From Nocardioides marinus (GTDB lineage Bacteria; Actinomycetota; Actinomycetes; Propionibacteriales; Nocardioidaceae), in NCBI RefSeq assembly GCF_013408145.1, contig NZ_JACBZI010000001.1, forward strand, positions 248,001 to 312,000: a DNA stretch of 64,000 bases, read 5' to 3'. Below, piece after piece: positions 7,122 to 18,400 of the stretch (position 1 is its first letter; the number at the start of each line of letters is the position of its first letter). A program made the position numbers and the translations under genes. The notes below the pieces were generated by a model. That model did no database searches, had not been told where the DNA came from, and worked only from the letters and a program-made list of their open reading frames with translations.

Positions 7122-7532
7122 TCAGGCCCGACCGGTCGCGTCGGCCAGGTCGGCCGACGTGGTCCCGACGTCAGGGCCCTCCTCCGCGGCCAGGAGTCGA
7201 GCCGCGAGGTCGGTGCCCCGGGAGGACAGCGCCAGCACCGCGCGGCGGCGATCGGCCGGGTCGATGCGACGTACGACGAGTGCCAGCTCGACCAGACGGT
7301 CGACGTGCCGCGTCAGGCTGGCGGCGGCCACGACCGCGGAGGCGGCCAGGCTGGTCATCGTGATGCCGGGGTGGTCGTCGACCACGGCGAGGATCCGCCA
7401 GTGCTCGGGCAGCAGCCCGTGCTCGTCGAGCAGCGGCTTGACCCGGTCCCGCAGCTCGGCCTCCTCCTGTCGCAGCCGCACCAGCCGGCTGCGGGAGAGG
7501 ACCGGGCCCTCTCCTTCTGCGTGCTCACCCAC
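7122..7532 (-). CDS. MarR family transcriptional regulator
   Basis: 136-aa winged-helix regulator. LLPEHWRILAVVDDHPGITM-TSLAASAVVAAASLTRHVDRL is the helix-turn-helix, and VVRRIDPADRRRAVLALSSRG is the wing with the family's DxRxR motif. The GTG at 7532 is the first start after an in-frame TAG. It is divergent from the UrtA-like gene at 7684, so that gene is its most likely target. The ligand is unknown. Confidence 0.88.
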   Translation of the reverse strand: MGEHAEGEGPVLSRSRLVRLRQEEAELRDRVKPLLDEHGLLPEHWRILAVVDDHPGITMTSLAASAVVAAASLTRHVDRLVELALVVRRIDPADRRRAVLALSSRGTDLAARLLAAEEGPDVGTTSADLADATGRA

Positions 7533-7584
7533 GGCGCGCCCCTACGGTGGTGTCCGTCACGTCGGCCGCCGTCCGACGGCCCAT
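7525..7584 (-). CDS. Possible 19-codon leader peptide upstream of marR
   Basis: An ATG at 7584 opens a 19-codon frame whose TGA overlaps the first codons of the MarR gene. TACGAT lies 7 bases upstream of this ATG, the same -10-to-start distance seen at the leaderless genes in this window. If translated, it could couple translation to marR or attenuate it. It may equally be chance; there is no conservation evidence. Confidence 0.25.
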   Translation of the reverse strand: MGRRTAADVTDTTVGARRG

Positions 7585-7683
7585 CGGACCTATCGTAGGT
7601 GGCGGCCGGTCACCCGGCCGGTGTTCAGGTCCTCTCGACGACGCGAGGACGGACGTCTCGTCCAGTCCGCTCCGGAGGTCCAC

Positions 7684-8763
7684 GTGACCCGACCCGTCGC
7701 CCCCGCCGACGTCGTGTCGGTGGCCTTCGTCGTGCCGCTGCAGGGTCCCACCGGCATCTACGGGCCCTCCTGCCTGGCCTGCGGTGAGCTCGCCGTGGAG
7801 CAGCTCAACGCGAGCACGGGCATCGCCGGGCGTCAGGTGGAGCTGGTGGTGGTCGACGCCGGCCGCGACCCTGCCCTGGTCGCCGAGGACGTACGCCGGT
7901 TGGTGGACTCCGGCCGCGTACAGGCCGTCGCCGGGTGGCACATCTCGGCGGTGCGCCAGGCCGTGACGCGGGTCGTCGGCGGCCGCGTGGTCTACGCCTT
8001 TGCCGCCATGCACGAGGGCGGGGACGCGACGCCCGGCGTCTTCATGATCGGCGAGCGCCCGCTCAACCAGCTGCTCCCCGCGGCGCACTGGATGCGCGAG
8101 GAGCTCTCGGTCGGTCGCTGGGCGATCATCGGCAACGACTACGTCTTCCCCCGCGTCACCGGCGCGACGGCACGCCTTGCGCTCGAGGACACGCCCTCGG
8201 AGGTCGTCAGCGAGACCTACGTTCCACTGGGGACGACCGACTTCGCAGCCGTCATCGGCGACCTGTCGCAGCGCCCGGTCGACGGCGTCATCATGCTCCT
8301 GATGGGGCAGGACGCCGTGCACTTCAACCGGCAGTTCGCCCGCGCGGGCCTCTCCGCGCAGCTGCCGCGGCTCAGCCCCGCGGTGGAGGAGAACACCCTG
8401 CTCGCGGGCGGCGCGGCCGCCAACGAGGGCCTCTTCGCGGCCGCGGCCTACTTCGACGGGATGGCGACGGCCGAGAGCGCCGAGCTGGCCCGCGCGTACT
8501 ACTCCCGCTGGGGGCGTTGGGCGCCGGCGCTGAACGCGGTCGGGGAGTCCTGCTACGAGGCGATGCTCTTCCTGGCGCGTCTCGGCGAGGTGTGCGGCTC
8601 GCTGGACGTGCGGCGGGTCAGCGCGATGGAGTCGGGACAGTTCTGGTCCAGCCCCCGCGGACTCGTGCGGCTGGACGGCAACCTGGTCGACCAGGACGTC
8701 TACGTCGCCCGAGCGGACGGCCTGGAGTTCCGGGTCGCCGACCAGATCGCCCGGGCGCACTAG
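7684..8763 (+). CDS. UrtA/AmiC-like ligand-binding protein without signal peptide
   Basis: 359-aa protein of the periplasmic-binding-protein type 1 fold (Peripla_BP_5/6), related to urea receptor UrtA and amide sensor AmiC. It shares GNDYVFPR and YVPLG with UrtA encoded at 17012-18262 (GSDYVFPR, YVPLD). It starts TRPVAPADVVSVAFVVPLQG with no hydrophobic leader or lipobox, so it should be cytoplasmic. The GTG at 7684 has GGAGG 6 bases upstream. It is convergent with ureD, the two stop codons sharing CTAG. A cytosolic urea/amide sensor role, by analogy to AmiC, is inference. Confidence 0.75.
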   Translation: MTRPVAPADVVSVAFVVPLQGPTGIYGPSCLACGELAVEQLNASTGIAGRQVELVVVDAGRDPALVAEDVRRLVDSGRVQAVAGWHISAVRQAVTRVVGGRVVYAFAAMHEGGDATPGVFMIGERPLNQLLPAAHWMREELSVGRWAIIGNDYVFPRVTGATARLALEDTPSEVVSETYVPLGTTDFAAVIGDLSQRPVDGVIMLLMGQDAVHFNRQFARAGLSAQLPRLSPAVEENTLLAGGAAANEGLFAAAAYFDGMATAESAELARAYYSRWGRWAPALNAVGESCYEAMLFLARLGEVCGSLDVRRVSAMESGQFWSSPRGLVRLDGNLVDQDVYVARADGLEFRVADQIARAH

Positions 8764-9554
8764 CGCTCCTCGCCCGGCAGGGGGGCGTCGAGCACCGCGG
8801 CGCGCGCGTGCTGCCAGGCGGTCGCGGTGCTGGCCTCGTGCGAGGCGCCGGCCAGGCGTCGCCACAGGGTGGCCCCGGGTGCCGCCAGGTCGAAGCGGTC
8901 CTCGTCCGGCCCGCCACTGAGCGGTGCGGGCAGGACCAGCAGCACGCTCTCCATCACCCGCGACCGCCCGAGCAGCGAGGGCGTCGTGCAGGCGTCGAGC
9001 GCGAGGTCCTCGGCCAGCACCCGGCGTACGTCGGAGCGGACGTCGGTCCGCAGCGACACCCGCCCCGGCGCCTCGTGGGCACGGCCCAGCACCAGCGTCT
9101 CCCGTATCGCCAGGTGCGCGCCCTCGGCGAAGCGCACCCGGGTGCGTCGATCGACCTCCGCGCCGGCGGCGACGACGAACGGCTCGCCCGCCCAGGTCAG
9201 GGCCGCCCCGGCGGCGACCCGGACGTCGACGTGCCAGGAGGCGTCCTGACCGCGCATGTCGTAGGCGACGGTCCCGCCCGGTTCGACGATCTCCAGGGAA
9301 GCGCCCGGGTCGACGGTGACGTCGAGCTCGATCCGATCGCCGGCGAGCAGCAGCGCCCCCTCCGGGACCAAGCTGAGCCGCGCGCGCCTGGCGTCGTGGT
9401 GGGTGAGGACGGGGCGCACGGTCGGCACGGTGGGGTCGGTCCCGGTGACCGACGTCCGCACCCGGCATCGTGCCCCACCCACGCCGGGCGAGACCCGCAC
9501 CCGGGTGCGTCCCAGGCGCCCGAGCGCGCCAGCGGCCTCAGTGGTGGTGGACAC
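8760..9554 (-). CDS. ureD: Urease accessory protein UreD
   Basis: 264-aa UreD (UreH), the scaffold that with UreF and UreG delivers nickel to apo-urease. It shows the family's all-beta pattern and motifs such as [34 protein letters not shown] and the C-terminal [13 protein letters not shown]. It is the last gene of the urtABCDE-ureABCFGD operon, overlapping ureG by 17 bases. Its TAG stop overlaps the convergent TAG of the UrtA-like gene. Confidence 0.88.
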
Positions 9555-10314
9555 CGACCGGCTCGCCCCCCTGGTCGTGGGTGTGGGTGTGCTCGTGCGC
9601 GTGGCTGTGGGCGGCCATCGGGCCGGGATCGACCGGGACCAGGCTGCCGGCGCGGTGCTCCGCGAGGCGGCCGTCGACCCAGGTCAGCAGGCGGTCGATG
9701 CTGTCGCGGTCGGTGCGGGAGAGGCCGATCACCGGGCGGTGGTCGCGCGCCGCGGTCGCGTCCGCGACCATCCGGGGCACGTCGACACCGACGAACGGTC
9801 CGAGGTCCGTCTTGTTCACGACCAGCAGGTCGGCGCGCTCGATCCCCGGCCCGCCCTTGCGGGCGACGTCGCCGCCGCCGGCGACGTCGAGGACGAAGAC
9901 CTGCACGTCGACCAGGGCCGGGGAGAAGGTCGCGGTGAGGTTGTCGCCGCCGGACTCCACGAGCACCATCTCCAGCCGGTGGTCGTAGTCCTCCTCGAGC
10001 TCCTCGATCGCCATCGCGTTGGCGGTGATGTCGTCGCGGATCGCCGTGTGCGGGCAGGCACCGGTCTCCACCGCGCGGATCCGGTCGGCGTCGAGGACCC
10101 CGGCCGAGCGCAGGAAGCGGGCGTCCTCGTCGGTGTAGATGTCGTTGGTGACCACGCCGAGCTCGAGGCGGTCCGACAGCTCCCGGCACAGCAGCGCGAT
10201 CAGCGAGCTCTTGCCGGTGCCGACGGGACCGCAGACGCCCAGGCGCATCGCCCGGGAGGGAGCGGACGTGGCGGTGCTGAGGGTGAAGCCGGGGGTGGGA
10301 GTGGGCTCAGGCAT
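9538..10314 (-). CDS. ureG: Urease accessory GTPase UreG with His-rich C-terminus
   Basis: 258-aa SIMIBI-class GTPase that powers nickel insertion into urease. The P-loop is GPVGTGKS (residues 29-36), the nickel-binding CPH motif is in [18 protein letters not shown] is switch II, and NKTD is the guanine-specificity motif. UreG is usually about 205-225 aa; here a C-terminal tail is rich in histidine ([12 protein letters not shown] and a terminal HHH). No ureE lies in the operon, so the tail may store or deliver nickel in its place. It overlaps ureF by 8 bases and ureD by 17. Confidence 0.95.
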
Positions 10315-10990
10315 GGAACAGCCTCCTGGTGGTGGCGGCGTGGGCCTGCGCCCACACCTCGATCAGTGGGTGGGTGGTCGCGGGCAGGTCGTCGACGTCC
10401 TGCACGGAGGAGACCCGCGCGGCCATCGCCTCGACCGCCGGCAAGGCCGCCACGACCCAGCCGACGACCGAGCCGGGGTCGAGGGGGAGCAGCTTGAGGG
10501 CCGCCGCGCAGACGGTCTGGACGTCGTCGTACCCCACGAGGTGGGCGACCGCGCGTCCCTCGAGCCCGAGGTGCCCGGCGAGCGCGCCGAGGGCCAGGGC
10601 CCGGCTGGGATGCTCCAGCGCGGCCAGCGCCTCCCAGGCGGGGGCGGCCGGCCAGGTGCGGCGGGCGATCCGCAGCAGTGCCCGGGCCTGTCGGCGGGAG
10701 GCGTCGCGCAGCGCAGGGCTCGGGGTCCGGGCCTCCCAGGCCTGCTCGAGGTCCAGCCACGCGGTGTTCGGGGCGCCCCTCTGCAGCAGGCGTGCGGCGA
10801 GGACCGAGGTCGCGGCCTCGACCTCGGTGACGGTGCGCAGCCGCACGTCGACGTACGCCGGCACGTCCTGCGCCTCGAGCCCGTCACGGGTCCCGGGCTC
10901 CAGGCCGCCGGACTGCGTGTGGCCGGCAACCGGCAGCCGCGCGTCCGCGAGCAGCATCAGCACGAGGTCGGCGTGCACGGTTCCGGACAT
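10307..10990 (-). CDS. ureF: Urease accessory protein UreF
   Basis: 227-aa all-helical accessory protein that bridges UreD and the UreG dimer. The N-terminus [21 protein letters not shown] matches the family's conserved start (LLxLADSxxPxGxxxxSxGLE), and the C-terminal [12 protein letters not shown] region is conserved. It begins 6 bases after the ureC stop and overlaps ureG by 8 bases. Confidence 0.88.
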
Positions 10991-10996
10991 CGGCGC

Positions 10997-12703
10997 TCAG
11001 AACAGGCAGTAGAGCTGCGCGAGCGGCAGTTCGGTCGCGGGCGCGGACTCGACCCGCTCGCCGTCGACGTCGATGGCGAAGGTCTCCGGGTCGATGTCGA
11101 TGCGGGGCAGGTAGGTGTTGTTGACCATCTGCGCCTTGCCGACCTCCCGTGTCGGCCGCACGGGCGCGAGCGAGCGCCTCAGCCCGAGACGCTCCTCCAC
11201 GCCGTCGTCCAACGCGGCGGGGGAGACGAAGGTGACCGCGTGCGGGCTCCCGTCGTCGACCAGCGTCGGGCGCATCAGCACCGGCTGGGGCGTGGGGATG
11301 GAGGCGTTGGGGTCACCGAGGGCGCCCCAGACCAGCGCGCCGGACTTCATCACGACGTCGGGGCGGATGCCGAAGAAGCGGGGGTCCCACAGCACCAGGT
11401 CGGCCATCTTGCCGGGCTCCACCGAGCCGACCTCGTGGTCGATGCCGTGGGCCACCGCGGGGTTGATCGTGTATTTGGCGACGTACCTCGTGGCGCGGGC
11501 GTTGTCGGCCGGTCCTTCGGTCAGGTCGCCGTGCCGGCCGAAGCGGTTCTTCATCACGTGAGCCACCTGCCAGGTGCGGCAGACCACCTCACCGATCCGG
11601 CCCATCGCCTGGGCGTCGGAGGAGGTGATCGACAGGGCGCCGAGGTCGTGCAGCAGGTCCTCGGCCGCGATCGTCGTCGCGCGGATACGGGACTCGGCGA
11701 AGGCGAGGTCCTCGGGCACCGCCGGATTGAGGTGGTGGCAGACCATCAGCATGTCGAGGTGCTCGGCGACGGTGTTGACGGTGTGCGGCAGCGTCGGGTT
11801 GGTCGACCCGGGGATCACGTGGGACAGGGAGGCGACGGTGAGGATGTCGGGGGCGTGACCACCGCCGGCCCCCTCGGTGTGGAAGGCGTGGATCGAGCGG
11901 CCGGCGATGGCACCGATGGTCGAGTCGACGTAGCCGATCTCGTTGAGCGAGTCCGAGTGCAGGGCAACCTGCAGGCCGAACTCGTCGGCTGCCCGAAGGG
12001 CCGCGTCGATCGCCGCCGGCGTCGAGCCCCAGTCCTCGTGGACCTTGAACCCGGCCGCCCCGGCCAGGGCCTGCTCACGCAGGCCACCGGTGCTGACGGT
12101 GTTGCCCTTGGCCAGCAGCAGCAGGTTGACCGGCACGGTGTCCAGCGCCCGGTGCACGGTGCCGAGGTGCCAGGCGCCCGGTGTGACCGTCGTGGCCTTC
12201 GAGCCCTCGGACGGCCCGGTGCCGCCGCCGACGACCGTGGTGATGCCGGTGGCCAGCGCCTCGACCAGCTGCGAGCGGGAGATGAGGTGCACGTGGGAGT
12301 CGATCGCCCCGGCCGTCAGGATCCGGCCCTCCCCGGAGACCACGTCGGTTCCGGGACCGATGACCAGGTCGGGGTGCACGCCGTCGGCGACGTCGGGGTT
12401 GCCGGCCCGCCCCAGGGCGACGATGCGTCCGCCGCGGACGCCGACGTCGGCGACGACGACCCCGCCGTGGTCCAGCACGATCGCGTTGGTGACGACCGTG
12501 TCCAGGGCACCCTCGGCCGAGGTGCGCACCGACTGGGCCATCGACTCGCGGATCGACTTGCCGCCGCCGAAGACCGCCTCCTCGCCGCCGACGGTGAGGT
12601 CCCGCTCGACCTCGATCCACAAGTCGGTGTCGCCCAGGCGCACCTGGTCGCCGACGGTGGGGCCGTACAGCGCTGCGTACTGCGCCCGGGAGATCTCGAC
12701 CAT
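10997..12703 (-). CDS. ureC: Urease alpha subunit UreC
   Basis: Catalytic subunit of urease, hydrolysing urea to ammonia and carbamate, 568 aa as usual. Nickel and active-site motifs are intact: [20 protein letters not shown] (carbamylated Lys), [27 protein letters not shown], and the mobile-flap MVCHHL. It starts at an ATG overlapping the ureB stop (ATGA). The three urease subunits are separate genes, as in most bacteria. Confidence 0.98.
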
Positions 12704-13053
12704 CAGGCCGCCCCGCCGTCCGTGCCTTGGCCGCCCGCGCGGACGCGGATGCCCGGCACCTGCCGTGCGCCCTTCAGGGCGACGGCCGCTACCTCGCGCG
12801 AGGCGCCCGGCTCGAATCGCTGGGAGGTGCCCGAGGGCACGTCGAGGCGGAAGCCGCGGGCGGCCTCGCGGTCCAGGGCGAGGGCGTCGTTGACGTCGGC
12901 GAGGTGCACGTGCGAGCCGATCTGCACCGGACGGTCACCGGTGTTGGTCACCACCAGCACCAGTCGCTCCTCCGGGCCACGGTCACCGTTGAGCTCGATG
13001 GTGCCCGACCGGACGCGCACCGCGCCCGGTCCCTCGCTGCTGCTGCCGCTCAT
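12703..13053 (-). CDS. ureB: Urease beta subunit UreB
   Basis: 116-aa structural subunit. [22 protein letters not shown] and [25 protein letters not shown] are the conserved family core. The ATG at 13053 was chosen over upstream in-frame starts because the family begins about ten residues before [13 protein letters not shown], and GGAGG lies upstream. An 85-base gap separates it from ureA, and its stop overlaps the ureC start. Confidence 0.95.
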
Positions 13054-13138
13054 GGCTCCTCCGTACGTCGCTCGGCTGGTGCTGCTGTTGCATGGCTGGT
13101 GCGTCGGTGCTGGCCAGGCGCCGGGTCGTGTGGTCGGG

Positions 13139-13441
13139 TCATGCGATCGGGTGGTGAAGGGTGACGAGCTTGCGGCCGTCGGGGAAGGTGGCCTCGACCT
13201 GCACGTCACGGACCATCTCCGGCACCCCCCGCATCACCTCGTCGCGGGTCAGCACCTCGCGGCCGCGCTCCATCAGGTCGCTCACCGAGGCACCGGCGCG
13301 CGCCTCCTCGACCACCCAGGTCGAGAGCAACGCAACGGTCTCGGGGTAATTGAGCCGCACGCCGCGCTCGCGTCGGTCGCGCGCGACCATCCCGGCCACG
13401 GCGAGCAGGAGCTTCTCGGTCTCCGAGGGGGTCAGGTGCAC
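13139..13441 (-). CDS. ureA: Urease gamma subunit UreA
   Basis: 100-aa gamma subunit, the usual length. [40 protein letters not shown], and the C-terminal [16 protein letters not shown] are family hallmarks. It starts 10 bases after the urtE stop, so urease genes are read on the same transcript as the urea transporter. Confidence 0.97.
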
Positions 13442-13451
13442 CGTGTCCTCC

Positions 13452-14132
13452 TCAGACGGCCATCGCCGCGCGGACCGCGTCCACGGCGCCGGGGCCGCCC
13501 TCGCCGCTGCTGGTGATCCGCCCGGACTCGAGCACGTAGTAGCTCTGCGTGGCCCGTAGCGCGAAGCCGACGTGCTGCTCGACCAGCAGCACCGACAGGT
13601 CCCCGCGCCGGGTGAGGTCGGTGATGACCGACTCGATCTCGGCGACGACGTTGGGCTGGATGCCCTCGGTGGGCTCGTCGAGGATGAGCATCCTCGGCCG
13701 GGTCAGCAGGGTGCGGGCGATCGAGAGCTGCTGGCGCTGCCCCCCGGAGAGCAGCCCGGCCCGGCGCGGGAGCAGCCCCCGCAGCGCCGGGAAGGTGTCG
13801 AGCACCTCGTCGATGGCCGCCTTCTCGGTGGTGACGAGCTGGAGGTTCTCCAGGGTGGTCATCTGCGGGAACGACAGCTGGCCCTGGGGGACGTAGCCCA
13901 GGCCGCGTCGCACGCGCGCGCTCGGTCGCAGCCTCGTCACGTCCTGCCCGTCGAGCAGCACCCGCCCCTTCATGACCGGGAGCAGGCCGACCGCCACGCG
14001 CAGCAGGGTGGTCTTGCCGGCGCCGTTGTGGCCCATGATCGCGGCGGCGCCGCCCTGTTCGACCACGACGTCCACGTCCTCGAGCACCCTGGTCCGGCCG
14101 TAGCCGGCGGTGACCCCTCGCAGCTCAAGCAC
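13452..14132 (-). CDS. urtE: Urea ABC transporter ATP-binding protein UrtE
   Basis: 226-aa ATPase of the branched-chain-amino-acid-type transporter family. Walker A is GHNGAGKTT, signature LSGGQRQQ, Walker [15 protein letters not shown], the last being typical of UrtE/LivF. It overlaps the end of urtD by 8 bases. Context (urtABCD upstream, urease downstream) gives the urea assignment. Confidence 0.93.
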
Positions 14133-14946
14133 GCTGGTCCTCCCCGGTCGTCTCGTCGGTCGTCCCCGGGTCCGGGTGCTCGGCGCCCTGGTGCCCCAGG
14201 TAGACCTCCTGGACCCGGGGGTCGGCCTGGATGGTGGCGACGTCGCCCTCGGCGAGCACGGTGCCGCCGTGCATGACGGTGACGACGTCGGCGAAGCTGC
14301 GCACGAAGTCCATGTCGTGCTCGATCACGACGATCGTGCGCTCGTGGCCGATGCGGCGCAGTAGCTCGCCGGTCTGCTCGCGCTCCTCGGCGCTCATGCC
14401 CGCCACCGGCTCGTCGAGCAGCATCACCTTCGCGTCCTGCACGAGCAGCATGCCTATCTCCAGCCACTGCTTCTGCCCGTGCGCCAGCACGCCCGCGGGC
14501 CGGTCGCGCAGGTGGGAGAGGCCGATGGTGGCCAGGGCCTCCTCGACGTACGCCGGCACGCCCCGTCGCGCGCGCAGCATGCCCCAGGGGCTGCGGTGGA
14601 TGCCGCCGGCGATGTCGAGGTTCTGCAGGACGCTGAGCTCCTCGAAGACCGTGGCGGTCTGGAAGGTACGCCCGACCCCGGCGCGCACGATGCGGTGGGA
14701 CTTCATCGAGAGCAGGTCCTGGTTGCGGTAGCTCGCCCGTCCGGTGCCCTGGACCAGGCCGGTGACCGCGTCGACCAGGGTGGTCTTGCCCGCGCCGTTG
14801 GGTCCGATGAGGAAGTGCAGTCGTCCCTGCAGCAGGGTCAGGTCCACTCCGTCGATGGCCTTGAAGCCGTCGAAGTCGACGGTGAGGCCGCGGATCTCGA
14901 GGTAGTCGTGCCCGAGCTCGTCGGGCCGGTGGGTCTGCACGCTCAT
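14125..14946 (-). CDS. urtD: Urea ABC transporter ATP-binding protein UrtD
   Basis: 273-aa second ATPase of the urea importer (LivG type). Walker A is GPNGAGKTT, RTFQTATVFEELSVLQNL is the Q-loop region, and VMLLDEPVAGMSAEE is the Walker B segment. The true start is the ATG at 14946, overlapping the urtC stop (ATGA); a longer open frame upstream is antisense-like sequence of urtC. The acidic tail (GAEHPDPGTTDETTGED) is unremarkable. Confidence 0.93.
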   Translation of the reverse strand: MSVQTHRPDELGHDYLEIRGLTVDFDGFKAIDGVDLTLLQGRLHFLIGPNGAGKTTLVDAVTGLVQGTGRASYRNQDLLSMKSHRIVRAGVGRTFQTATVFEELSVLQNLDIAGGIHRSPWGMLRARRGVPAYVEEALATIGLSHLRDRPAGVLAHGQKQWLEIGMLLVQDAKVMLLDEPVAGMSAEEREQTGELLRRIGHERTIVVIEHDMDFVRSFADVVTVMHGGTVLAEGDVATIQADPRVQEVYLGHQGAEHPDPGTTDETTGEDQRA

Positions 14947-16019
14947 GCCGCGCTCCTCCCGAACCGTGCGCGGACCAGCCGCGGCAGGTCCCCCACGCCG
15001 CGGGGCAGCAGCAGGATGACCAGGACGAAGAGCAGGCCCAGGAAGTAGGTCCACTGGGTGGGGAACTGCTCGGAGAGGTAGGTGCGTCCGAAGCCGACCG
15101 TCAGGGCCCCCAGGGCGGGGCCGAGCAGCAGCGCCCGGCCGCCCAGCGCGACGCCGGCGATGAGGAAGATCGAGGCGGTGGCGTCGACGTCGGAGGGGGA
15201 GATGATGCCGGCGATCGGGGCGAACATCGCGCCGCCGATGCTGGCCATCACCGCAGCGATGACGAAGGCGACCAGCTTGATGTTGGCCGGGTCGTGGCCC
15301 AGGAAGCGGACCCGCTCCTCGGCGTCGCGGGTCGCGACGAGCAGCTCCCCGAAGCGGCTGCGGTAGAGCTGCCAGACGATCACGAGGCAGCCGATCAGCA
15401 GCCCGGCGGCGATGGAGTAGACCATCTGCTTGTTGACCGGGTCGTAGAGGTTGTAGCCGAAGAAGAGGGTGAACTGGTTGAGCCCGTTGAAGCCGCCGGT
15501 CTCCTGGATGGTGGCGATCAGCAGCGTCGCGAACACCACGGCCAGGGCCTGGGTGAGGATCGCAAAGTAGGCGCCCTTGACCCGCCTCTTGAAGATCAGC
15601 CAGCCGAGCGCCGTCGCGGCGAGTGCGGGCAGGACCACGATCGCCACCAGGGTGAACGGGCCGCTGCGGAACGGCTCCCAGAACCCGGGCATCGTGCCGT
15701 CGCCGTACAGGATCATGAAGTCGGGGATGCCTTCGGGGCCGGCCGCCTCGAGCTTGAGGTGCATCGCCATCGCGTAGCCGCCGAGGCCGAAGAAGACGCC
15801 CTGTCCCATGACGAGCATGCCGCCGCGGCCCCAGGCCAGGCCGATGCCGACGGCGGCGATGGCCCAGCAGATGTACTTGCCCAGGCTGTTGAGGCGGAAG
15901 GCGCTCAGCGTCGCCGGTGCGACGACCAGCAGCAGCACCGCCAGCACCGCGATCGCGAGGAGGGGGGAGTAGGCCCGCAGCAGGCTCGCGGCCCTGCTCG
16001 GACCGACGGTGGTGCTCAT
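14943..16019 (-). CDS. urtC: Urea ABC transporter permease UrtC
   Basis: 358-aa permease of the LivM type with about ten hydrophobic segments. AIAAVGIGLAWGRGGMLVMGQG and NPANI-like HDPANIKLVAFVIAAVMAS are typical of UrtC. Its start overlaps the urtB stop (ATGA), and its stop overlaps the urtD start. Confidence 0.93.
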   Translation of the reverse strand: MSTTVGPSRAASLLRAYSPLLAIAVLAVLLLVVAPATLSAFRLNSLGKYICWAIAAVGIGLAWGRGGMLVMGQGVFFGLGGYAMAMHLKLEAAGPEGIPDFMILYGDGTMPGFWEPFRSGPFTLVAIVVLPALAATALGWLIFKRRVKGAYFAILTQALAVVFATLLIATIQETGGFNGLNQFTLFFGYNLYDPVNKQMVYSIAAGLLIGCLVIVWQLYRSRFGELLVATRDAEERVRFLGHDPANIKLVAFVIAAVMASIGGAMFAPIAGIISPSDVDATASIFLIAGVALGGRALLLGPALGALTVGFGRTYLSEQFPTQWTYFLGLLFVLVILLLPRGVGDLPRLVRARFGRSAA

Positions 16020-16900
16020 GCCAGACCTCTCGTCCGCACGGTGAAGAGCCCTTGGGGGCGCAGCTGGAGGAAGACCACCACCAGCGCGAAGGTGGCCACC
16101 TGCGCCATCGCCGCACTCGTCCAGTCGGCGAAGAATGCCGTGGCGATGCCGACGGTGAAGGCGGCGATGACGGTGCCCTTGAGCTGCCCGAGCCCGCCGG
16201 CGACCACGACGAGGAACGCCGAGATGATGTAGGTCTTGCCCAGGCTCGGGTTGGTGCCGGAGATCAGCGACACCGCTACCCCGCCGATGCCCGCGAGGCC
16301 GGAGCCGATGAAGAAGGTGATCCGGTCCGTCGCCCGGGTCGAGATGCCCATCGTCTCGGCCAGGTCGCGGTTCTGCACCGTGGCACGGATGCGGCGGCCG
16401 AAGGAGGTGTACTTCAGCAGGGCGGCGAGGGCGCCCAGCGAGGCCAGCGCCAGCACGATGGTGAAGATCTGGCGGTAGGGCCAGTTGTAGCCGAAGACCG
16501 GGATCGTGCCGACGAGCCAGTCGGGGACGCGGACCGGGTCACCCTGGGCCCCGAAGACGTCCTTGGCCAGCTGCTGGAGGACCAGGCTGACGCCGACGGT
16601 GACCAGCAGCGTGTCCAACGGCCTTCGGTACATGAAGGAGATGACGCAGACCTCGAGCAGCAGGCCCATCAGTCCCGCGACGACGAACGCGACCGGCAGA
16701 GCGACCAGGATGGAGAGGTCGATGTTCGTGACGACCTGCTGGGTGACGTAGGCGGTGTAGGCGCCGATCATCAGGAACTCGCCGTGGGCCATGTTGATGA
16801 CCCCCATCTGGCCGAACGTGAGGGTCAGGCCGAGGGCGGCGATGAGCAGGAGCGCGCCGGTCGCGGTGCCGGCGAGCAGCGGGGTGGTGAAGGCGTCCAC
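16016..16900 (-). CDS. urtB: Urea ABC transporter permease UrtB
   Basis: 294-aa LivH-type permease. GLTLTFGQMGVINMAHGEFLMIGAYTAY is the family signature, with further motifs RATVQNRDLAETMGI and GGLGQLKGT. The GTG at 16900 was chosen because the upstream ATG at 16963 adds a proline/alanine-rich segment that runs into the intercistronic hairpin. It is separated from urtA by 111 bases, the only large gap in the transporter operon. Confidence 0.9.
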   Translation of the reverse strand: MDAFTTPLLAGTATGALLLIAALGLTLTFGQMGVINMAHGEFLMIGAYTAYVTQQVVTNIDLSILVALPVAFVVAGLMGLLLEVCVISFMYRRPLDTLLVTVGVSLVLQQLAKDVFGAQGDPVRVPDWLVGTIPVFGYNWPYRQIFTIVLALASLGALAALLKYTSFGRRIRATVQNRDLAETMGISTRATDRITFFIGSGLAGIGGVAVSLISGTNPSLGKTYIISAFLVVVAGGLGQLKGTVIAAFTVGIATAFFADWTSAAMAQVATFALVVVFLQLRPQGLFTVRTRGLA

Positions 16901-16955
16901 GGGGGCCTTTCGATCCGAGTGACATCCGGGGGGCTGGCTGGTCGGGGCCGGGGCC

Positions 16956-16981
16956 GGGGCCACCGCGTCGGCGGTGGCCCC
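16956..16981 (-). terminator. Intercistronic hairpin between urtA and urtB
   Basis: GGGGCCACCGC (16956-16966) and GCGGTGGCCCC (16971-16981) form a perfect 11-bp stem with a 4-base loop, 31 bases after the urtA stop. With no T-run it may be a partial terminator or a 3'-end stabiliser. Either would give more receptor than permease, a common arrangement in ABC importers. Confidence 0.65.
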
Positions 16982-17011
16982 GGACCGGGTGGGGCGGGGG
17001 TCAGGCGGGGA

Positions 17012-18262
17012 TCACTCCGCGCTCGGGTCCCACCAGGAGTAGCCCTCCAGGAACGGGTCGGGCTCGATCGGCGACCCGGAGGACCAGACGACGTCGAACT
17101 GGTTGTCCTCGTTGATCTGGCCGATCAGCGCGGTCTTGGCGATGTGGTGGTTCTCGCCGTCGATCGTGACCGTGCCCTCGGGGGCGTCGAAGCTGACCCC
17201 GTCCGAGGCGGCGTTGACATCGTCGACCGCGAAGGAATCGGCCTTCTCGACGATCGCCTTGTAGAGATACAGGGAGGTGTAGGCGGCCTCCATCGGGTCC
17301 GAGGTCGGGCGGCTGGCGCCGTACTTGGCCTGGAAGGCGTCGATGAAGGCGGAGTTCTCCGGGCTCTCGACGGACTGGAAGTAGTTCCACGCGGCGTACT
17401 GGCCGGTGACGCTGTGGCCCATGGCCGGCGCCTCCTCCTCGGCGATCGAGACCGAGATGATCGGGGAGGTCTCCGCGGAGAGGCCCTGCTCGTAGTAGGC
17501 CTTGATGAATCCGACGTTGGACGAGCCGTTGATCGTGTTGAACACGAAGTCAGGCTTCGCCTTCACGATCTTGGCTACCTGCGTGGTCCAGTCGTCGTCG
17601 TCGAGCGGGACGTACTCCTCGCCGACGATCTCGATGCCCAGCTCGGCGGCGTACTGCTTGATGATCTTGTTGGCCGTGCGCGGGAAGACGTAGTCCGACC
17701 CGGCGAGGAAGAGCGTCTCCACGCCCTCGGAGGCCAGGAAGTCCATCGCGGGAATGATCTGCTGGTTGGTCGTGGCGCCGGAGTAGTAGATGTTCTCCGA
17801 GGCCTCGAGGCCCTCGTACTGCACCGGGTAGAACAGCAGGCCGTTGTTGGCCTCGACGACCGGGAGCATCGCCTTGCGCGACGCGGAGGTCCAGCCACCG
17901 AAGACCGCCGCGACGCAGTCACCGGTCAGCAGCTTCTCGATCTTCTCGGCGAAGATCGCGGGGTCGCTGGCCCCGTCCTCCTCGACGGCCTCGATCTGCT
18001 TGCCGAGGATGCCGCCGTCGGCGTTGATCTCCTCCATGGCCAGGCCGAGGGAGTCGCGGACGGTCTGCTCGCTGATCGACATCGCGCCCGAGGTCGAGTT
18101 GAGGAACCCGAGCTTGATGGTGTCGCCGGAGGTGTCGACGCAGCTCTCGGCGGCGCTGACGCCGTCGTCGGACTTGTTGCCGCAGGCAGCCAGGCTGAGT
18201 GCGGTGAGGACGGCGAGCGCTGCGCCTCCGGCAGCGCGACCGCGGGTACGGGTGGTGAACAC
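17012..18262 (-). CDS. urtA: Urea ABC transporter substrate-binding lipoprotein UrtA
   Basis: 416-aa extracytoplasmic urea receptor. The signal peptide ends in a lipobox (LSLAAC). Family motifs include KLGFLNSTSGAMSISE, FGGWTSASRKAMLPVVE, LLFYPVQYEGLE, GSDYVFPRTAN and MEAAYTSLYLYK. The GTG start has GAGAGG upstream. It leads the urtABCDE-ureABCFGD operon, which makes import and hydrolysis of urea one regulatory unit. Confidence 0.96.
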   Translation of the reverse strand: MFTTRTRGRAAGGAALAVLTALSLAACGNKSDDGVSAAESCVDTSGDTIKLGFLNSTSGAMSISEQTVRDSLGLAMEEINADGGILGKQIEAVEEDGASDPAIFAEKIEKLLTGDCVAAVFGGWTSASRKAMLPVVEANNGLLFYPVQYEGLEASENIYYSGATTNQQIIPAMDFLASEGVETLFLAGSDYVFPRTANKIIKQYAAELGIEIVGEEYVPLDDDDWTTQVAKIVKAKPDFVFNTINGSSNVGFIKAYYEQGLSAETSPIISVSIAEEEAPAMGHSVTGQYAAWNYFQSVESPENSAFIDAFQAKYGASRPTSDPMEAAYTSLYLYKAIVEKADSFAVDDVNAASDGVSFDAPEGTVTIDGENHHIAKTALIGQINEDNQFDVVWSSGSPIEPDPFLEGYSWWDPSAE

Positions 18263-18313: not shown

Positions 18314-18400
18314 AACCTAGGAACGTGGGATTTCAGATTGCTACCAAATGGAATTAATTCGGTGTTACGGGGTCCCGTACGACCCGGACGGTCCCGTAAC
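18314..18400. promoter_or_regulatory. Divergent promoter region of urtA and the LVIVD gene
   Basis: This AT-rich stretch lies between divergent genes. On the minus strand TAGGTT (18314-18319) could be a urtA -10. GTTACGGG (18364-18371) and CCCGTAAC (18393-18400) form a perfect inverted repeat around 21 bases. Nitrogen regulator GlnR would be the expected regulator of such an operon, but I cannot fit its GTNAC-N6-GAAAC pattern convincingly here. Confidence 0.4.

Follow-up and report, generated by a model that had tools for sequence, protein, structure and literature searches.

The gene pair examined here, an AmiC-like binding protein ("the sensor") and an adjoining MarR-type regulator next to the urt-ure operon of Nocardioides marinus, is one urea-linked branch of a widespread family of AmiC-like/MarR pairs that lie beside amidase, acetamidase/formamidase, and nitrile hydratase genes. 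Most likely, the sensor responds to cytosolic urea, or to a small amide there, and controls its MarR. Because such pairs recur beside urea, amide, and nitrile breakdown genes in many bacteria, this one probably switches its neighbouring genes when the nutrient arrives. The window (the whole stretch of DNA analysed, 64 000 nucleotides) belongs to a genome of 4.11 Mb in a single contig, in which the sensor gene is situated at 0.256 Mb; among named relatives, Nocardioides sp. REDSEA-S33_B3 comes closest at this gene (98%). The following features of the window were used:

7122..7532, minus strand: marR, 136 aa, MarR_2 family (from Pfam, and from adjacency in 109 of 111 loci)
7533..7683: divergent intergenic region between marR and the sensor gene
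7589–7599: CCTATCGTAGG, conserved in Nocardioides relatives, possibly a −10 element
7629–7637/7642–7650: inverted repeat in the intergenic region
7674..7678, plus strand: ribosome-binding site GGAGG, 5 nt 5' of the GTG start (from sequence)
7684..8763, plus strand: sensor candidate, putatively cytosolic binding protein of AmiC/UrtA fold, 359 aa (from Pfam, structure model, tree, and upstream frames of homologues)
8760..9554, minus strand: ureD, last gene of the urt-ure operon, the stop of which overlaps that of the sensor gene by 4 bp (8760–8763)
9538..13441, minus strand: ureG, ureF, ureC, ureB, and ureA, probable target operon (from gene order in relatives)
13452..18262, minus strand: urtE, urtD, urtC, urtB, and urtA, urea ABC transporter
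17012..18262, minus strand: urtA, the true UrtA (TIGR03407, 514.4 bits)
18341..18354, minus strand: ATTCCATTTGGTAG, inverted-repeat-like site upstream of urtA (from a palindromic motif search)

The layout given in a preliminary description of this DNA, with a good ribosome-binding site at the sensor start, a divergent marR gene, and a urt-ure operon converging on the sensor gene, was found as described: GGAGG precedes the GTG start codon, marR and the sensor gene stand head-to-head, and the sensor gene meets ureD tail-to-tail. The sensor protein scored above the cut-offs of Peripla_BP_6 (231.4 bits) and Peripla_BP_5 (181 bits), and the marR product contains a winged-helix MarR domain (PF12802, MarR_2; 52 bits, cut-off 27). 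Purifying selection acts on the sensor gene (dN/dS 0.06 to 0.20 in five comparisons), and the sensor is strongly conserved over 31 rows. It has a type-I binding-protein fold. Its AlphaFold model (pLDDT 85.3 overall, below 50 in the pocket loop residues 109–113) was matched in structure comparison to 8tg1 (Z 40.2), 8hic (Z 38.8), and 1pea (Z 38.1), and by these near-equal scores it is about equally close to the urea-binding proteins and to AmiC; the earlier proposal of an AmiC-like fold thus agrees with the model. Identity to UrtA in the structure alignments was 24–27%.

The sensor protein appears to be cytosolic. Its reading frame in the window is open far upstream of the GTG start; in the homologues L033, L039, L040, L051, L059, L077, and L079 an in-frame stop is present about 10–17 codons ahead of the domain's first strand. 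A missed upstream signal peptide, named beforehand as the observation that would speak against a cytosolic protein, was looked for in the frames of the homologues and none was found, since these stops leave too little room upstream of the domain; the description of the sensor as a protein with neither signal peptide nor lipobox therefore holds. As a reservation, longer N-terminal stretches occur in some homologues (the N. luteus group, L091, and L121–L123).

Loci carrying an intact homologue of the sensor numbered 111, made up of the window, 53 loci from a search of genome contigs, 14 plasmid loci (chosen among the matches listed, 40 of 1019 records), 36 loci that represent all further places from a search of 394 genomes of the class, and 7 distant places in the genus. 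An eighth distant place (G023), in which the gene is frameshifted, was left out, and duplicates were kept (L133 is a second copy of L084, and L085 and L086 encode an identical protein). With six MarR queries taken from these same loci, marR was detected within 1.5 kb of the sensor gene in 109 of the 111 loci; in a control with the same queries it was detected at none of 812 positions drawn at random from these loci at a distance of over 3.5 kb from the sensor, so that the marR neighbourhood, the conservation of which had been proposed as a check, is conserved. The two loci lacking a match within this distance, L164 (36%) and L167 (33%), are the most distant members. The AmiC-like gene adjoins marR in all 14 inspected plasmid loci. 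Of these 109 marR genes, 100 are divergent from the sensor gene, 6 meet it tail-to-tail, and 3 share its strand. Homologues pairing with permeases had also been named in advance as counter-evidence; the homologues were found to pair with MarR instead of with their own permeases, and where a urt operon lies near a homologue, that operon has its own UrtA.

Each sensor is inherited together with its MarR. Their evolutionary distances are correlated (r 0.833, n=107), also when the urea branch is omitted (r 0.746, n=56), with permutation maxima of 0.144 and 0.162, respectively. The genomes G086 and G135 each carry two paralogous pairs, and between the two genomes both members of each pair match those of its counterpart (sensor 93/89%, MarR 90/85%), whereas the paralogous copies inside one genome share 47% and 37–40%; species relatedness alone therefore cannot explain the pairwise inheritance. 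Genes for urease/urtA, amidase, acetamidase/formamidase, or nitrile hydratase were present within 9 kb in 104 of the 111 loci, an uncontrolled count based on marker genes from the same loci. The seven loci lacking these markers are L056, L121, L122, L123, L137, L144, and L146, of which L056 is a short contig with ureA and ureB. For the Pseudonocardia pairs the adjoining nitrile hydratase and FmdA_AmdA genes were confirmed by Pfam. As a separate observation, L164 and L167 adjoin amidase and nitrile hydratase genes and may use a partner other than MarR.

In the best tree (88 rows, 13 of them UrtA), nitrile hydratase rows join the Nocardioidales urea-linked branch (21 rows, SH-aLRT 100) with a support of 80, and formamidase-type rows join a second branch linked to urea genes (7 rows, SH-aLRT 99). 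A single origin of the urea linkage is compatible with the data (AU p 0.292), and since it is unrejected, two separate recruitments to urea genes are not claimed. AmiC is placed on a long branch at the base of the sensor's family, with long-branch warnings for AmiC and several other rows. Within the Nocardioidales branch three arrangements were encountered: in Nocardioides and Aeromicrobium the sensor gene meets ureD tail-to-tail, in Kribbella marR stands immediately upstream of a permease gene and ureABC, and in the N. luteus group it stands immediately upstream of urtA. In 25 comparable loci the stops of the sensor gene and ureD overlap by 4 bp (9 loci) or by 64 bp (5 loci) or are at most 67 bp apart (the rest), and since they overlap or nearly touch, the convergent transcripts must overlap.

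The link to the urea genes was surveyed in 147 genomes of the genus, with a urea-type sensor defined by at least 65% identity. Such a sensor was found in 31 genomes, in 30 of them as an apparently intact gene and in G023 as a broken one; 52 genomes have ureC and 37 have urtA. In every one of the 31 sensor genomes both urtA and ureC share the contig of the sensor gene, and no urea-type sensor was detected in the 110 genomes lacking urtA (0/110), which substantiates the connection to urea genes that had been drawn from position (Fisher p 3.8e-26 against urtA and 3.1e-18 against ureC, relatedness being ignored). The sensor is absent from 21 of the 52 ureC-bearing and 6 of the 37 urtA-bearing genomes, and is therefore dispensable. 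Two of the urtA genomes lacking a sensor keep marR, beside ureD in G129 and upstream of urtA in G127; in G028, G062, and G143 neither sensor nor marR was found in the stretches examined. Intact-looking urt-ure genes accompany a mere C-terminal sensor fragment in G120 (L196), the remaining one of the six urtA genomes lacking the sensor, and the frameshifted sensor gene in G023 (L168).

Three known systems are close to the pair. NhhC and NhhD, reportedly an AmiC-like protein beside a MarR-like protein, are reported to regulate the H-nitrile hydratase that amides induce in Rhodococcus rhodochrous J1, both being needed for this induction (Komeda, Kobayashi, and Shimizu, 1996). The likeness lies in the AmiC-like gene adjoining a marR-like gene and the difference in the target, nitrile hydratase in J1 and, adjoining the window pair, urt-ure. 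The comparison was made through the locus of strain M8 (L085) as a stand-in for J1, which has the make-up expected for the NhhC/NhhD kind (binding protein, MarR, nthB, nthA) and a binding protein that shares about 42% identity with the window sensor. The window pair shows two features of this kind, an AmiC-like gene adjoining marR and a position beside a urea hydrolysis operon; the M8 genes are tail-to-tail, whereas the window genes are head-to-head.

AmiC of Pseudomonas aeruginosa (PDB 1pea, 1qnl, 1qo0) is a cytosolic amide sensor that controls a partner protein, the ANTAR antiterminator AmiR. It resembles the sensor in type-I binding-protein fold (Z 38.1) and in the cytosolic location predicted for the latter but differs in that the partner of the window sensor is MarR. 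A genome-wide search for an ANTAR gene adjoining the sensor gave four matches, at 2.18 and 3.98 Mb, none of them beside the sensor, and antitermination of the AmiC/AmiR type was ruled out on this ground. UrtA (PDB 8hic, 7s6e, 7s6f; 8tg1), the third system, shares the fold and some pocket residues with the sensor; it is an exported lipoprotein, whereas the sensor is predicted to be cytosolic and belongs to a separate clade.

The pair had been proposed as a possible new urea/amide-sensing regulatory pair. The conserved MarR partner and the tight link to urea genes bear this proposal out in part; a pair unique to the window it is not, as the family is widespread. The type of pair is reportedly already known from the regulation of Rhodococcus nitrile hydratase; what is new, as far as can be told, is that it has urea-linked branches and occurs so broadly. 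No MarR/AmiC-like pair at urea genes was found in the open-access literature searched, which counts as weak evidence of absence, MarR being an ambiguous term.

In the mechanism that we favour, the sensor would close inside the cell on urea, or on a small amide standing for urea. The change between its open and closed states would alter its hold on MarR (by analogy with AmiC and NhhC/NhhD), and the action of MarR at the urt-ure promoters and at those of its own gene and the sensor gene would change in turn. The operon would thereby be released or activated, with urea uptake and urease being made when substrate is present. MarR would most plausibly be a DNA-binding repressor and the sensor its ligand-driven modulator. 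This division of roles is suggested by the persistence of marR in the absence of the sensor in G129 and G127 together with the presence of marR in 109 of the 111 sensor loci. More tentatively, and with rather less confidence, the pairs could represent a widespread two-protein sensor, in which a binding-protein (LacI-like) ligand domain and MarR are encoded by separate genes and which radiated over amide, nitrile, and urea catabolism, the Nocardioidales branch being dedicated to sensing urea inside the cell by means of a pocket constructed unlike that of UrtA.

Urea is the simplest ligand in view of the strict genomic partnership with urea genes, and caution is called for by the pocket, from which the decisive contacts of UrtA are absent. 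Nine urea-pocket residues have been defined in Prochlorococcus UrtA, and mutation of three of these (W120, Q144, N246) weakens or abolishes urea binding (PMC10392092). With positions assigned by counting residues in the 7s6e sequence, all nine are kept in 18 of 18 UrtA rows. The sensor keeps four, namely S88, E111, Y153, and F155 (UrtA S122, E146, Y190, and F192), of which S88 and Y153 correspond to the Ser and Tyr contacts common to UrtA and AmiC, and differs at five (sensor/UrtA: H86/W120, F106/Y141, M109/Q144, M207/N246, A233/S274). The second urea-linked branch has the amide-type residues L109, W155, and V207 at these pocket positions, and a common urea signature is therefore lacking.

These findings bear on an alternative in which the pair is a regulator responding to another small amide or nitrogen metabolite and the urea operon is merely one of its targets. 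We regard it as unlikely, yet as the strongest of the rivals: the three decisive UrtA contacts are lost from a pocket lined by Met, Phe/Tyr, and Ala, AmiC has hydrophobic residues (P, V) at the same pocket places, and relatives outside the urea branch adjoin amidases and nitrile hydratases. The strict partner genes in the urea branch, on the other hand, are urtA and ureC, and the pocket changed specifically in that branch: 3 of its 19 specific columns (of 343) fall on the nine UrtA pocket positions (M109, F/Y155, M207; p 0.0098, weakening to p 0.11 once neighbours within two residues are counted), which suggests a re-tuned ligand.

Still less probable is a sensor that binds urea in the cytosol for urease, or delivers it to the enzyme, while MarR regulates alone. 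The retention of marR without the sensor in the two genomes named above and the abutment of the sensor gene on ureD in 25 loci would suit such a role, but the same pair stands beside non-urease operons, the sensor is co-inherited with MarR, and loci of the Kribbella and N. luteus types place the sensor on the marR side of the operon.

The kinship to UrtA was assessed separately. The sensor scored 169 bits against TIGR03407, below the cut-off of 492.75, and lies outside the single clade formed by the 13 UrtA rows (SH-aLRT 99), so that an origin from UrtA has to be abandoned. The N-terminus of the window's true UrtA resembles that of a lipoprotein and ends in LAAC. The motifs reported as common to both proteins proved to be near matches rather than identical (GNDYVFPR and YVPLG in the sensor, GSDYVFPR and YVPLD in the true UrtA). 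A UrtA paralogue or pseudogene was accordingly ruled out: the frameshifted copy in G023 and the C-terminal fragment in G120 might hint at a functionless degenerate or leftover copy, but the separate clade, the low dN/dS, and the strong conservation make this highly improbable for the window gene.

Where the favoured regulator would act on DNA was approached through motif searches. A palindromic motif search over the Nocardioides marR/sensor intergenic regions gave CCTATCCTAGG, perhaps a −10 element. The site ATTCCATTTGGTAG, sought with at most one mismatch, occurred at 26 places in 24 of 147 genus genomes; 24 of the places are immediately upstream of urtA, the others being in G004 and at a contig end of G057. 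The site is nearly unique per genome and lies upstream of urtA in 23 of the 147 genomes, and a reversed control gave 1 match. Among the 24 genomes with this site 22 have the sensor, and G129 has marR only; 9 of the 31 sensor genomes lack the exact site, some of them having the variants TTTCCGTCTGGAAAC and TTCCACATGGAA. Two observations speak against MarR as its regulator: in the marR/sensor intergenic regions the repeat occurred at chance level, and its block begins with GTAAC, which resembles GlnR boxes (PMC10704036). MarR or GlnR may bind there as candidate regulators.

Control by nitrogen status through GlnR is known in actinomycetes (PMC10704036). If the proposed function is correct, urea uptake and urease are induced in these actinobacteria, in addition, by a dedicated cytosolic sensor of the substrate, and the question arises how a binding protein lacking the key contacts of UrtA would recognise urea. 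Scattered annotations of a "substrate-binding domain-containing protein" and a MarR would then join into one regulatory module with predictable inducers, of use in nitrile hydratase/amidase biotechnology and in biosensors for small amides or urea.

Two further observations were made at individual loci. On plasmid pBAM1 of Aminobacter sp. MSH1 (L091) an AmiC-like/MarR pair lies about 4 kb from an amidase gene and may regulate benzamide breakdown. In 17 Kribbella-type loci a protein of 566 aa with 12 membrane-like segments (L047:5624–7324, minus strand) is encoded between marR and ureA. It matched no Pfam family above the cut-off (best E 0.031) and, judged from its sequence, is a candidate permease for urea or short amides that belongs to no described family; relatives lie beside the sensor/MarR pair in L120 (67%, amiE), L131 (65%, fmdS), and L139 (47%, fmdS).
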